A stretch of 64,000 nucleotides of DNA, from positions 682,001 to 746,000 of the forward strand of contig NZ_AP027059.1 of assembly GCF_030295325.1 (NCBI RefSeq). Reading direction: 5' to 3'. Each line of letters opens with the position of its first letter. Within the stretch, counting starts at the first letter, position 1. The DNA is from Haliovirga abyssi (GTDB lineage: Bacteria; Fusobacteriota; Fusobacteriia; Fusobacteriales; Haliovirgaceae). A program made the position numbers and the translations under genes. The notes below the pieces were generated by a model. The model worked only from the letters and a program-made list of their open reading frames with translations. It had not been told where the DNA came from and made no database searches. Shown piece by piece: positions 43,719 to 50,037 of this stretch.

Positions 43719-46700
43719 ATGAAAGGAAAATTTGCACATTTACATTTACATACAGAATATAGTCTTTTAGATGGAGTGGGTAAAATAGATGAATATTTAA
43801 ATAGAGCTAAAGAATTAGGGATGGATGCTATAGCTATAACAGATCACGGGAATATGTTTGGAGCTATGGAATTTTATAAAAAAGCTCTAAAAGCAGGAAT
43901 AAAACCTATAGTAGGAATAGAAAGTTATATTGCAGAGGGAAGTGCATTAGAAAGAAAAGGCGAGATTTTTCATCTTATTTTATTAGCTAAAAATAAAGAG
44001 GGATATAAAAATCTTATAAAATTATCATCATTTGGGTATATAAATGGGTTTTATCGTAAGCCTAGAATTGATAAAGAAATTTTGAAAAAACATAGCAATG
44101 GAATAATAGCATTATCTGCTTGTATGAAAGGTGAAATTCCATATTATTTATTAAATAATAAAGAGGAAAAAGCTAGAAATAGTTTAAAAGATTATATTGA
44201 AATTTTTGGAAAAGATAATTTTTATATAGAACTACAGGATAATGGAGTTATTGGGCAAAAAGAGTTAAATGATAAATTATATAGTCTAGCACAAGAGTTT
44301 GAAATTAAAGTAGTTGCTACTAATGATGTTCATTATGTAAATACAGGAGATGAAGCACTACAAGATATTGTAATATGTATTCAAACAGGAGCGAAATTGA
44401 CAGATGCCAAGAGAATGAGGATAAATACAAACGAATTATATTTAAAAAGTTATGAACAAATGTATGAAAGACTAGGAAGATATGAAGGGGCAATTGAAAA
44501 TAGTATTGAGATAGCTAAAAAATGTAATTTAGAATTAAATTTAGGTGGGTTTAAATTTCCTCATTATGAAATTCCAGAAGATGAAAAAAATATAGATACA
44601 TTTTTAGAAAAGCTTATAAAAAAAGGGATTGTAAGACGCTATGGAGAAAATATTAAAAGAGAAATTTTAGAAAGAGTTAATTATGAACTTGAAGTTATAA
44701 AGAAAATGGGATATTCTGGATATTTTGTAGTTGTATGGGATTTTATAAATTATGCTAAAAGTCAAAAAATTCCAATTGGACCTGGAAGAGGTTCTGCTGC
44801 AGGAAGTATAGTTGCATATCTTTTAGGAATTACAGAAATTGATCCAATAAAATATAATCTTATTTTTGAAAGATTTTTGAATCCTGAAAGGGTAAGTATG
44901 CCAGATATAGATATTGATATTTGCCAAGAAAGAAGGCAAGAATTGATAAATTATGTTGTAAATAAATATGGAAAGGATAGAGTTGCACAAATCACTACAT
45001 TTGGGACAATGAAAGCAAGAGCTGCTATTAGAGATATTGGAAGAGTTATGGGTGTGCCACTATCTAAAATAGATAAAGTAGCAAAGCTTATACCTCATAA
45101 TATGACTATAGGAAAAGCATTAAAAGAAAATGAAAAATTAAGAGAATTTTATCAAAAAGATATAGAAATAGAAAAAGTATTAGAATATTCAAAAAGAATA
45201 GAAGGAAAGGTTAGGCATGTATCAATACATGCAGCAGGAATAGTTATTTCTAAAAATCCATTAGATGAAGAAGTTCCACTTTATTCTGATAAAAAAACTG
45301 GAACTGTAGCTACACAATATCAAATGAAAGAATTGGAAGAAATCGGACTTTTAAAAATGGATTTTTTAGGTCTTAGAAATCTTACAATAATTCAAAGAAC
45401 AATTGATTATATTAAAATGAATAAGAAAATAAATATTGTTTTAGAAAATATAGATATAAAAAATGAAAAAAGCTATAAAATATTACAAAATGGGAATACA
45501 TTAGGAGTATTTCAATTAGAATCAGAAGGAATTAGACGACTTACAATGAAATTAATTCCAGAAAGATTTGAGGACATAACAGCAATACTTGCATTATACA
45601 GACCAGGTCCATTAGGAAGTGGAATGGTAGATGATTTTATAAAATCAAAACATGGAGAGCAAGCTATAAAATATCCACATCCTATGTTAGAAGAAGTATT
45701 AAAAGAGACATATGGGGTTATATTGTATCAAGAGCAAGTTATGAAAATAGCTAATTTAATGGGGGATTATTCATTAGGAGAAGCAGATATTTTAAGAAGA
45801 GCTATTGGAAAAAAGATTCCAGAAATAATGGAAGAAAATAGAGCTAAATTTGTAAGAAGGGCAAAAGAAAATGGAGTAAAAGCGGAAAAAGCAGAAGAGA
45901 TATTTAACTTAATTGATAAATTTGCTGGATATGGATTTAATAAATCACATTCAGCTGCTTATGCAATGATTGCATATTGGACAGCTTATTTTAAAGCAAA
46001 CTTTCCAGTTGAATTTTATGCAGCACTTATGACTTCTGAGAAAAATAATATTGAGAAATTAGCAATATATATAGAAGATGCAAAAAAAAATGGAGTGAAA
46101 GTATTACAACCTGATGTTAATCACTCATTTTCAAATTTTGCGATTGAAAATAATAATGTTAGATTTGGAATAGCAGCAGTAAAAAATATAGGTGAAGGTA
46201 TAGTCAATAAAATTACAGAAGAACGAGAAAAAAATGGAGAATATACAAATTATGAAGAGTTTGTATATAGAACTAAAAAAATTGGTATGAATAAAAAAAG
46301 TTTAGAAGCTTTAATTATATCGGGCTGTTTGGATGGTATGCCTGGAAATAGAAAAGAAAAATTTGAATCTGTAGAGGATGTTTTGTCAAAAGTTGGGAAA
46401 AGAATAGCAAGAGATGAAAATTTGCAAATATCTTTATTTGGTGGCGGAACTATTTTAGATAAGTTTATTATGCCACATTTAGATGATTATTCAGATGAAG
46501 AAAAATTAAATGGAGAAAAAGAATATTTAGGATTATATTTTACTGGTCATCCATTAGATAAATATAAAGAGATATTTGAAGTTTTTAAATTTAAAAAATT
46601 AAAATCGATTCTTGAAGAAGATATAAATAGATTTAAAACTGTTGGGATAATTAGAGAATTAGTAAGAAAAGTTACAAAGTCCGGGCAAGTAATGGCATTT

Positions 46701-47126
46701 TTTCTATTAGAAGATTATAGTGGAACTGCAAAGACAATGATATTTCCGAAAAGCTACATGAGATATAGTCACAATTTATTAGAAAATAAAGTTGTTATTA
46801 TAGATGGAGTTTTAACTGTAGATTCATTTGGAAATATTGAAGAGAAAAAAATTATTGCAAATGAAGTATATGATATAGGAGATTTGGAAGAGATATCAGG
46901 TATGAATGTTTATATATTAATAGAAGAAGAAGATAAATATAAGATAGATCAATTAAAAGCAATATTACTAAGACATCTTGGAAAAAATCAAGTTATATTA
47001 GCGTTAAAAAAAGAAAAAGAAAAAAGATTATTAAGATTAGGAAGAGGATTTTATGTGTTGCCATCTATGGCGTTGGTAAATGATATAAAAAAATTGTTAG
47101 GAGAAGGAAAAGTAGTTATAAAATAG
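43719..47126 (+). CDS. dnaE: DNA polymerase III alpha subunit
   Basis: A 1135-aa replicative polymerase of the DnaE type. The N-terminal PHP domain begins HLHLHTEYSLLDGVGK, the catalytic aspartates lie in PDIDID (395-400), the palm and fingers follow (GPGRGSAAGSIVAYLLG, YRPGPLGSG), then a helix-hairpin-helix and an OB fold near residue 990. There is no internal 3'-5' exonuclease, which separates it from PolC. Its last 14 codons are repeated downstream at 48121-48163, on the far side of a toxin-antitoxin pair. Confidence 0.97.
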   Translation: MKGKFAHLHLHTEYSLLDGVGKIDEYLNRAKELGMDAIAITDHGNMFGAMEFYKKALKAGIKPIVGIESYIAEGSALERKGEIFHLILLAKNKEGYKNLIKLSSFGYINGFYRKPRIDKEILKKHSNGIIALSACMKGEIPYYLLNNKEEKARNSLKDYIEIFGKDNFYIELQDNGVIGQKELNDKLYSLAQEFEIKVVATNDVHYVNTGDEALQDIVICIQTGAKLTDAKRMRINTNELYLKSYEQMYERLGRYEGAIENSIEIAKKCNLELNLGGFKFPHYEIPEDEKNIDTFLEKLIKKGIVRRYGENIKREILERVNYELEVIKKMGYSGYFVVVWDFINYAKSQKIPIGPGRGSAAGSIVAYLLGITEIDPIKYNLIFERFLNPERVSMPDIDIDICQERRQELINYVVNKYGKDRVAQITTFGTMKARAAIRDIGRVMGVPLSKIDKVAKLIPHNMTIGKALKENEKLREFYQKDIEIEKVLEYSKRIEGKVRHVSIHAAGIVISKNPLDEEVPLYSDKKTGTVATQYQMKELEEIGLLKMDFLGLRNLTIIQRTIDYIKMNKKINIVLENIDIKNEKSYKILQNGNTLGVFQLESEGIRRLTMKLIPERFEDITAILALYRPGPLGSGMVDDFIKSKHGEQAIKYPHPMLEEVLKETYGVILYQEQVMKIANLMGDYSLGEADILRRAIGKKIPEIMEENRAKFVRRAKENGVKAEKAEEIFNLIDKFAGYGFNKSHSAAYAMIAYWTAYFKANFPVEFYAALMTSEKNNIEKLAIYIEDAKKNGVKVLQPDVNHSFSNFAIENNNVRFGIAAVKNIGEGIVNKITEEREKNGEYTNYEEFVYRTKKIGMNKKSLEALIISGCLDGMPGNRKEKFESVEDVLSKVGKRIARDENLQISLFGGGTILDKFIMPHLDDYSDEEKLNGEKEYLGLYFTGHPLDKYKEIFEVFKFKKLKSILEEDINRFKTVGIIRELVRKVTKSGQVMAFFLLEDYSGTAKTMIFPKSYMRYSHNLLENKVVIIDGVLTVDSFGNIEEKKIIANEVYDIGDLEEISGMNVYILIEEEDKYKIDQLKAILLRHLGKNQVILALKKEKEKRLLRLGRGFYVLPSMALVNDIKKLLGEGKVVIK

Positions 47127-47133
47127 ATATTTT
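47084..47133 (+). repeat. Direct repeat, left copy (dnaE 3' end)
   Basis: 50 nt covering the last codons of dnaE and 7 nt beyond. They match 48121-48170 at 46 of 50 positions; the differences are at 47096, 47108, 47126 and 47128, and the three inside the reading frame are synonymous third-position changes. Confidence 0.93.
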
Positions 47134-47140
47134 AGTTTTT

Positions 47141-47240
47141 GGAATGTTTAAAAAATAAGTTTCTCATTTTTTGTTATAAAAACGCTTAAATGGTTATGTA
47201 TTTTATAACAAAATAGGAAGGTTATTTTTAGCTGTTCCTT
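47141..47240. repeat. Full-length palindromic repeat (about 100 bp)
   Basis: Ends GGAATGTTTAAAAAATAAG and TTATTTTTAGCTGTTCC pair imperfectly. The inside holds a second palindrome, TTTTGTTATAAAAACG with TATTTTATAACAAAA, around CTTAAATGGTTATG. It lies 14 nt after the dnaE stop. 47241-47378 has no further feature except the ribosome site of the next gene. Confidence 0.88.
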
Positions 47241-47378
47241 AGGTACAATAAAAAAATAAATTTGTCAAAATTGTTTGAGAAAATCTGTAGATACGTTCAT
47301 ATTTTTTAAACAAACGACTCATTAATTTTTTTAAAGTCCATTAGTAAAGAATATTTGAAAAATTTGGAGGTGTTATAA

Positions 47379-47636
47379 ATGTTAAGAAAGTCTAAATTAG
47401 AATTTCCAGAGGAGATATTATTTGCTTTGAGAGAAAATGAGAACTTTTTTTTGAAAGAGATAAAAGTAATTGCAGCAGTTAACTATTATAAAGAAAAAAG
47501 ATTATCAGTAGGACAAGCAGCTGAATTAGCAGAAATGAGCGAGGAAGAGTTTATAAAATATTTAGGTGGAAAAAAAATTTCAATATTTCAATTTGAAAAT
47601 GAAGAAGAATTATTGGAGGATATAAAAAATGCGTAA
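47379..47636 (+). CDS. UPF0175-family antitoxin
   Basis: An 85-aa protein of the UPF0175 family, with an N-terminal strand/helix (LEFPEEILFALRENENFFLK) and a helix-turn-helix-like middle (RLSVGQAAELAEMSEEEFIKYL). These proteins are encoded ahead of DUF3368 PIN-domain toxins and probably bind DNA and the toxin. The toxin start overlaps its end by 8 nt. GGAGGTG lies before the ATG. The pair sits between the two dnaE-end repeats. Confidence 0.85.
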   Translation: MLRKSKLEFPEEILFALRENENFFLKEIKVIAAVNYYKEKRLSVGQAAELAEMSEEEFIKYLGGKKISIFQFENEEELLEDIKNA

Positions 47637-48117
47637 AGTTATAGTAAATTCAACACCGATAATATCTTTATCATTAATAGATAGTTTATATATTTTAAAA
47701 GAGCTTTATGGAACTGTATTTATACCAAAAGCTGTATATGATGAAGTAGTAATAAAAGGAAAATCTAAAATCGGCTCTAATAATTTATTAGAGTGTGAAT
47801 ATATAAAAATTTTAGAAATAAAAAATAAAGAAGCTGAAAAACTTTTTAAAACAAATTTACATAGCGGAGAAGTAGAGGTTATGATTTTATATGATGAATT
47901 AAATGCAGATTTATGTATATTAGATGATTTGTTAGCAAGAAAATATGCAAAATATCTAAATTATAATATTACTGGAACAATCGGAGTATTATTAAAAGCT
48001 AAAGAGGTTGGATTAGTAAAAAATATAAAGCAATTACTTTTTGAGCTGATTAAGAATGGAATTTATATAGATAGAAAATTAATGAAAAAAGTTTTAGAAT
48101 TAGCAAATGAAAATTAA
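47629..48117 (+). CDS. DUF3368 PIN-domain toxin
   Basis: A 162-aa PIN-like ribonuclease of the DUF3368 type. The N-terminal strand is VIVNSTPIISLSLID, where the first acidic residue of VapC-type PIN domains is Asn, as in many DUF3368 members. Further acidic residues follow in YDEVV, SGEVEVM and CILDDLLARKYA. It would cleave RNA when freed from the antitoxin. It starts inside the antitoxin gene, so the two are translated together. The dnaE-like repeat begins 3 nt after its stop. Confidence 0.85.
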   Translation: MRKVIVNSTPIISLSLIDSLYILKELYGTVFIPKAVYDEVVIKGKSKIGSNNLLECEYIKILEIKNKEAEKLFKTNLHSGEVEVMILYDELNADLCILDDLLARKYAKYLNYNITGTIGVLLKAKEVGLVKNIKQLLFELIKNGIYIDRKLMKKVLELANEN

Positions 48118-48120
48118 AAA

Positions 48121-48170
48121 TATAAAAAAATTATTAGGAGAAGGGAAAGTAGTTATAAAATAAACATTTT
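48121..48170 (+). repeat. Direct repeat, right copy (orphan dnaE 3' end)
   Basis: 46 of 50 positions match 47084-47133. The copy still reads IKKLLGEGKVVIK-stop in the same frame as dnaE, although no dnaE lies upstream of it. It marks the right edge of the toxin-antitoxin insert. Confidence 0.93.
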
Positions 48171-48203: not shown

Positions 48204-48232
48204 TTGCGATTACTTAAAAAATGTGGTAAAAT
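48204..48232 (+). promoter_or_regulatory. Promoter of the accB-like/accC genes
   Basis: TTGCGA and TAAAAT with a 17-nt spacer; TGTGG precedes the -10 box. It lies 39 nt before the accB-like start and 34 nt after the right dnaE-end repeat. Confidence 0.75.
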
Positions 48233-48270: not shown

Positions 48271-48669
48271 ATGGAAGTAACTGAAATAAAGAAATTAATG
48301 GAGATACTAAATACTACAGATGTAACAGAAATTACTTTAGAAGCAGATGGAACAAAAGTATTATTAAAAAAAGATATGAACAAACAAAAGGTGGTAACAA
48401 AACCTGTGCCAGCAAAAGTAGAAAAAAAAGAGGAAGTTAAAGAAGAAAGCGAATATTTGTATTCTCTTAACATTGGAAAAATCTTTTATAAAAAAGATAT
48501 AAAAGAAGGAACTGCTATTTCTGAAAATGAAATAATAGGATATATAGAAGCAATTGGAGTAAAAACAGATATAATAAGTGATAAATCAGGAATAATTAAA
48601 GAATTATTAGTTAAAACTGGAGAAAATGTAGAATTTGGGAAAGCTATAATAAGCTTAGCCAAAAAATAA
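48271..48669 (+). CDS. BCCP-like protein lacking the biotinyl lysine
   Basis: A 132-aa protein laid out like acetyl-CoA carboxylase biotin carrier protein: an N-terminal segment (VTEIKKLMEILNTTDVTEIT), a charged linker, and a biotinyl domain ending IISDKSGIIKELLVKTGENVE. In BCCP the hairpin reads EAMKM; here residues 93-97 are EAIGV, so the lysine that carries biotin is Gly96 and the nearest Lys is 98. It cannot be biotinylated at the normal place. Yet it is encoded 12 nt before accC under its own promoter. It may be a scaffold or regulator; another BCCP would be expected elsewhere. Confidence 0.8.
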   Translation: MEVTEIKKLMEILNTTDVTEITLEADGTKVLLKKDMNKQKVVTKPVPAKVEKKEEVKEESEYLYSLNIGKIFYKKDIKEGTAISENEIIGYIEAIGVKTDIISDKSGIIKELLVKTGENVEFGKAIISLAKK

Positions 48670-48681
48670 GGAGGTTTCTAA

Positions 48682-50037
48682 ATGTTTAAAAAAATACTTA
48701 TTGCCAATAGAGGTGAAATAGCGGTAAGAATAATAAGGGCAGCAAGAGAATTAGGAATAAAAAGTGTTGCAGTTTACTCTGAAGCAGATAAAAGTTCTCT
48801 ACATGTAAGATTAGCTGATGAATCAGTTTGTATTGGTTCTGCTATGAGTACAGAAAGTTATTTGAAAGTTCCAAATATAATAGCTGCAGCAGAAATAACT
48901 AATGCAGATGCCATTCATCCTGGATATGGTTTTTTAGCGGAAAATGCTGAGTTTGCAAAAATATGTGCAAGTCATAATATTGTATTTATAGGACCTAGTC
49001 CTGAAATTATAATTAGTATGGGAGATAAAGCTACAGCAAAAGAAACAGCTGTAAAAAATAATGTGCCAGTTGTACCAGGAACAAAAGGAGTAGTAAAAGG
49101 AGTAGAAGCAGCAAAAAAAATAGTAAAAGAAGAAATAGGATATCCTGTAATGATAAAAGCTACTGCTGGTGGTGGTGGTAAAGGGATGAGAATAGCAAGA
49201 GATGAAAAAGAATTAGAAAAAAATATGGTTGCAGCAGAAAATGAAGCAAAAGCTGCATTTGGAAATCCAGATGTATATATAGAAAGATATGTAGAGCAAC
49301 CAAAACATATAGAGGTACAAATTATTGGAGACAAGCATGGAAATGTAGTGCATTTAGGAGAAAGAGATTGTTCTATACAAAGAAGACATCAAAAATTAAT
49401 AGAAGAATCACCTTCAATAGCGATTTCAGAAGATGTAAGGCAAAAAATGGGAGAAGCAGCAGTTAGACTTGCAAAAGCAATAGGATATGATAGTGCTGGG
49501 ACTATTGAATTTTTATTAGATAAAGATAAAAATTTCTATTTTATGGAAATGAATACTAGAGCACAAGTAGAGCATACAGTTACAGAGATGGTAACAGGTG
49601 TGGACATAATTAAAGAACAAATATTAGCAGCAGCAGGAGAGAATTTAACAGTAAAACAAGAAGATATACAAATAAGAGGTCATGTAATAGAGTGTAGAAT
49701 AAATGCAGAAGATCCTGATATGAATTTTATGCCTTCAGCTGGAACAATAACAAACTATATTCCATCAGGTGGGATAGGAGTTAGGGTTGATAGCCATATA
49801 TATTCTGGATATGATATACCACCATATTATGATTCTATGATAGGAAAATTAATAGTATGGGGAGAAAATAGAGAAGAAGCTATAAGAAGAATGGATAGAG
49901 CTTTAAGAGAGCATATAGTGGAAGGGATAAAAACAACTATACCTTTCCATTTGAGAGTTTTAGATAACGAGTATTATCAAAGAGGAGAAATATATACTGA
50001 TTTTATAGAAAAAAGAATGTCTGAGGAGAAAAAATAA
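48682..50037 (+). CDS. accC: Biotin carboxylase
   Basis: A 451-aa biotin carboxylase: [20 protein letters not shown] at the N-terminus, ATP-grasp glycine loop GGGGKGMR from residue 163, [27 protein letters not shown] and the C-terminal biotin carboxylase domain ([11 protein letters not shown]). It carboxylates biotin on a carrier protein for acetyl-CoA or another acyl-CoA carboxylase. The transferase subunits are not in the window. The stop codon lies in the left arm of a palindromic repeat. Confidence 0.96.

Follow-up and report, generated by a model that had tools for sequence, protein, structure and literature searches.

The window, which here means the whole 64,000-nucleotide stretch of Haliovirga abyssi DNA that was analysed, contains the genes dnaE, accB and accC in that order, and the 3' end of dnaE is present twice (Table 1). 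The first copy is the working end of the gene. The second lies just upstream of the accB promoter, and between the two are a toxin-antitoxin gene pair and two palindromic elements.

Table 1. Features at the dnaE-accB junction, in coordinates of the window
Feature	Position	Strand	Basis
dnaE, DNA polymerase III alpha subunit, 1135 aa, stop TAG	43719..47126	+	Pfam PHP, DNA_pol3_alpha, finger, HHH_6 and OB domains
Left copy of dnaE 3' end, working gene end	47083..47133	+	51-nt direct repeat, 47/51
MITE-like palindromic element 1, ~45 genomic copies, terminal inverted repeats AGGAACG...CGTTCCT, often at TA	47142..47239		own-genome search and copy alignment
MITE-like element 2, ~6 copies, inverted ends AGGTAC.../...AAGTCCCT, abuts element 1	47239..47347		own-genome search and copy alignment
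UPF0175 (COG2886) antitoxin, 85 aa	47379..47636	+	PF03683, E=2.6e-21
DUF3368 PIN-fold toxin (predicted), 162 aa, 8-nt overlap with antitoxin	47629..48117	+	PF11848; PADLOC PDC-S70, E=2e-45
Right copy of dnaE 3' end, proposed displaced original end, TAA at 48161-48163	48120..48170	+	51-nt direct repeat
accB promoter, TTGCGA-17-TAAAAT, extended -10	48204..48232	+	same promoter type directly behind dnaE stop in relatives
accB	48271..48669	+	PF00364; syntenic in relatives
accC	48682..50037	+	Biotin carboxylase domains; syntenic in relatives

The direct repeat is gapless. A reading made from the sequence alone (the sequence-only reading) had placed it at 47084-47133 and 48121-48170 with 46 of 50 positions identical; it is real, and starts one base earlier. 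The left copy takes in the final 44 nt of dnaE and the 7 nt that follow it. The repeat scores 75 bits, against 39 bits for the next best match to the dnaE end in the roughly 270 kb of the genome that was searched. All four mismatches are transitions, one of them after the stop. The three in the dnaE frame (left/right TTG/TTA, GGA/GGG, TAG/TAA) are synonymous changes at third positions, and the frame of dnaE itself is intact despite the insert. The right copy, with TTA, GGG and TAA at the differing codons, has the flank ACATTTTG. The sequence-only reading had taken the synonymy to mean that the copy came from a dnaE under selection, and had found the picture to fit an insert that replaced the dnaE end with its own version. 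The synonymy itself stands, but it cannot carry the replacement: a random transition here has a 34.5% chance of being synonymous, so that three out of three (p = 0.04) is weak evidence by itself. Codon usage as a test of which copy is native gives a likelihood ratio of 3, which is uninformative. An ATG overlapping the last codons of the toxin gene is in frame with the right copy, creating an 18-codon ORF at 48107-48163 (MKIKNIKKLLGEGKVVIK) that is probably due to chance.

The sequence between the copies holds two MITE-like elements, two genes, and no integrase, recombination or transfer genes. Where the sequence-only reading had a single palindromic repeat beside the UPF0175-DUF3368 pair, the pair is confirmed and the repeat resolves into elements of two different multi-copy families, set head to tail with a junction TTA common to both. 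Family 1, which forms a long hairpin, is spread across both replicons. The pair has the gene order and overlap of a type II system, with PF03683 and PF11848 both above cut-off. The DUF3368 product is a predicted PIN-nuclease-fold toxin; its model has a pLDDT of 89 and its top PDB matches are PIN proteins, e.g. AF0591 and VapC4. As a pair it is ordinary, sharing families, order and overlap with the COG2886-PIN type II pairs in the passages found in PMC2701414 and PMC6929052, and the corresponding PADLOC entry, PDC-S70, is a candidate defence system. Its nearest homologues, at 57-58%, are from an Armatimonadota MAG and a Cloacimonadota MAG, followed by Clostridia, and the DUF3368 pair is present in only 1 of 98 Fusobacteriota genomes. 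By homology and distribution, this marks the pair as foreign to the Fusobacteriota lineage and from a distant source. An Rfam scan gave no match above threshold. Mobile elements of other kinds were set aside. A transposon or insertion sequence does not describe an insert with no transposase between the copies and with both MITEs on its left side only; transposition by the MITEs themselves does not fit either, both being left of the pair and their copies elsewhere being mostly at TA. Phage origin was rejected as well, relatives of the toxin being absent from the viral contigs scanned.

The gene order of related genomes shows what the junction looked like before. The relatives compared lie outside the organism's own family and the nearest share at most 61% of dnaE; among them, accB and/or accC is found just 3' of dnaE in 19 of the 20 read, with a similar insert in none of those 19, and accB directly follows dnaE in every syntenic Fusobacteriota relative. 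Because the syntenic relatives have dnaE and then accB, and the pair occurs in one genome of 98, comparative gene order establishes that the pair was inserted into an ancestral dnaE-accB junction. The right copy occupies the site of the relatives' dnaE end, adjoining the accB promoter, and the 107 nt from its stop to accB are near the spacing usual among relatives. The comparison of dnaE junctions that the sequence-only reading had proposed finds the pair-free junction ancestral and the right copy in the position of the dnaE end of relatives. Neither pattern that it had named as counting against an insertion was seen: no relative carries both copies, and the accB leaders of pair-free genomes lack a second copy.

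A search for the same type of pair at the ends of other genes, likewise duplicated, had also been proposed, and such loci were found. For example, an Oscillospirales genome has the pair behind a malic enzyme gene, the end of which is repeated after the toxin gene over 51 nt at 100% identity, with its own stop in each copy. An archaeal genome, found in a search of the phylum of a Methanoperedens MAG, has the pair at the 3' end of uvrA with a 49-nt repeat, also 100% identical and with a stop in each copy. A Ruminococcaceae MAG has the pair behind rpoC, where it is the terminator that is duplicated (31 nt, just two copies in that genome). At the rpoC locus L096 (3995-4336) an internal deletion has cut the DUF3368 protein to 113 aa and the duplicated rpoC terminator is kept.

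A survey of 168 testable distinct related pairs from bacteria and archaea scored a pair as bracketed if the 400 nt upstream and the 300 nt downstream shared a match of at least 40 bits. Since terminators and REPs sit between genes, a control of random positions was replaced by 216 matched gene units from the same loci. Direct repeats bracket 29 of the 168 pairs vs. 6 of the 216 control units (Fisher p = 1e-6). Much of this signal comes from archaeal contigs (23/92 vs. 5/88, p = 4e-4) that are partly metagenomic, and MAG-like contigs may misassemble repeats. The excess in bacteria is modest (6/76 vs. 1/128, p = 0.011), and one of the six is the window itself, from which the test arose. Two of the six bracketed bacterial cases are multi-copy sequences and were rejected as clean cases: the repeats at L067 (3695-3736 and 4509-4550, in a MAG labelled Hungatella) belong to a REP-like family with 58 matches, and those at L071 are promoter-like repeats that occur elsewhere in the same locus. 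Across all cases the repeats range from about 30 to more than 200 nt. Bracketing by gene ends should be seen as one route or stage rather than the rule, because about four of five homologous pairs (~83%) have no bracketing repeat and neither do any of ten classic pairs of E. coli K-12.

The most extensive cases are arrays in two related archaea, G915 (L291/L292) and G1085 (L293/L294), in which many copies of the 3' end of a HIT-family gene alternate with cassettes. The cassettes are mostly toxin-antitoxin pairs (VapBC-type PIN, HicAB, UPF0175-DUF3368, DUF5615, DarTG), although one segment carries a MatE transporter. When the arrays are aligned, they differ by exactly one HicA cassette and one repeat, which G1085 has and G915 lacks. 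Dead copies drifting in place would be expected to have one third of their differences at third codon positions. Set against the full HIT gene, the fragments have 14/13/76 and 22/20/83 differences at codon positions 1/2/3, with no indels. A dead copy, frozen or drifting, compared with an evolving gene could yield some third-position excess, and for this reason the fragments were also compared with each other. Disjoint pairs of fragments differ by 2/3/16 (third positions 16/21, p = 7e-5) and 10/5/40 (40/55, p = 3e-9), again without indels. The third-position bias and the lack of indels indicate that the HIT fragments, which stem from different strains or different times, were the ends of working genes until they were displaced. 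On a small scale the window's dnaE copy has the same third-position pattern, with three of three. A partial scan of the ORFs beside the arrays found no tyrosine, serine or integron integrase, and only an IS21-like transposase. In G915 a further partial copy of the HIT end adjoins an IS21-like element.

We favour, with a probability of roughly 0.6 and on comparative grounds, the reading that a toxin-antitoxin cassette was inserted at the end of dnaE, giving the gene a new end and displacing its former one. What the sequence-only reading proposed is upheld as to the insertion, the position of the right copy and the recurrence elsewhere, if not by its three synonymous changes alone. The pair would have arrived from its distant source as a small cassette bearing, or gaining on entry, a dnaE 3' end, and would have entered dnaE by recombination within its last codons. 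Either homologous recombination at the gene end or an unseen integrase acting in trans may have brought this about. The displacement at dnaE itself would then have left the gene with the cassette's end (the left copy), and shifted the old end, with its stop and the accB promoter, about 1 kb downstream (the right copy); the two MITEs would have inserted between dnaE and the pair. Such a cassette is presumably both excisable and addictive. A crossover between the left and right copies would remove it precisely, although no circular form was seen, and as loss of the cassette means loss of the antitoxin, the pair would protect its own insertion. Essential genes would be tolerable as targets because the reading frame stays unbroken. 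Repeated insertion at one gene would build arrays, and one-sided homologous joining is our guess for how the end of a new gene is first captured.

An account based on survivorship is compatible with this reading, not opposed to it. Any insert with a flanking duplication would tend to delete again, and toxin-antitoxin pairs would be what stays, since losing them kills or stalls the cell. That nothing more than this is at work is a real possibility, though we put it below an even chance. The identified cargo of the arrays is mainly addiction modules, and the passages found in PMC2701414 state in general terms that addiction helps transferred genes to become fixed. Survivorship on its own leaves the formerly-working look of the gene-end fragments unexplained, and one array segment carries the MatE transporter.

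The closest known counterparts are CIMEs, whose definition, together with the tandem accretion of IMEs and ICEs at gene 3' ends, is given in PMC7563491. The dnaE locus has their features, a flanking 51-nt repeat with the gene left whole, a displaced end beyond, and no recombination or transfer genes inside, and the HIT arrays have the tandem arrangement behind one target. The dnaE insert is best seen as a CIME-like gene-end cassette. It could also be an ordinary remnant, left by an IME or ICE whose own integrase had placed it at the 3' end of dnaE and which later lost everything but the pair and two att copies. The layout and the tandem arrays fit such a remnant, which we nevertheless find rather doubtful: members of the pair family are found in unrelated hosts at the ends of dnaE, rpoC, malic enzyme, uvrA and HIT genes, the units are always about 1 kb with a toxin-antitoxin pair only and without integrase remnant, and no parent element or integrase was found, the array-side ORFs having given only the IS21-like transposase. 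Integron cassette arrays are similar in chaining small, repeat-separated units, toxin-antitoxin pairs included, that are gained or lost singly, but the separators here are host gene ends (HIT) and probably not attC, and the ORFs scanned include no integron integrase. The Rhs/CDI orphan modules, which form by C-terminal displacement (PMC3150448), likewise have a new gene end arriving with a toxin/immunity pair and pushing the old end downstream; here, however, it is a housekeeping gene that is displaced, and the toxin is a separate gene and not the C-terminus of the target.

Duplication in place, in which repair of a staggered break or template switching copied about 50 nt of dnaE as a long target duplication and the outer copy then drifted neutrally, is in our judgement unlikely. 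The freshest cases elsewhere, malic enzyme and uvrA, are close in length to the 51 nt of the window and fully identical, and three synonymous changes out of three are just a p = 0.04 outcome of drift. Repeat lengths as variable as those of the survey speak against it, and the array fragments, indel-free and differing mainly at third positions, are not what drifting dead copies would produce. A block import, also raised in the sequence-only reading, would have brought the accB-accC side and a foreign dnaE end in together from a relative through homologous recombination. We find it highly improbable even with accB much closer to that of G001 (51%) than to those of other relatives (~30-40%), because the dnaE, accC and accB trees agree, each pairing the genome (G000) with the same G001 at moderate support, and a block import of the acc genes from another lineage is not indicated.

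Toxin-antitoxin pairs are credited with exceptional horizontal mobility in PMC2701414, the searched passages of which name no way of moving for stand-alone chromosomal pairs. Bracketing gene-end repeats go unmentioned in the passages found there and in PMC6929052, and the open-access literature searched holds no description of such gene-end cassettes, an absence that is no proof of novelty. The recurrence in bacteria and archaea suggests that addictive pairs spread by putting new ends on ordinary genes in place of the old. The signature of working gene, pair and displaced gene end offers a testable route that does without an integrase of its own; it would explain how pairs sit behind essential genes and cause no harm, and with it insertion events can be spotted and put in order in any genome. 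Where arrays differ by exactly one cassette and one repeat, gain or loss is directly visible. More speculatively, and with the odds against it as a general statement, toxin-antitoxin pairs may form a class of integrase-free cassettes with the 3' ends of host genes as attachment sites. Recombination between gene ends would release a circle of the pair plus one gene end, ordinary homologous recombination would carry the circle into that gene in another strain, addiction would prevent its loss, and arrays of unrelated cassettes would build up.

Other repeat-rich arrangements were seen among the archaeal loci. At L178, L181, L212 and L232 several toxin-antitoxin pairs lie amid decayed copies of the same coding sequences. 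A 57-nt repeat (CCCGGTAGTGT..CGGGCGTACAT) is common to several related archaeal genomes (L295 in G1172, L296 in G1035 and L297 in G1078), where it separates DUF5615 units, UPF0175-DUF3368 units and other genes.
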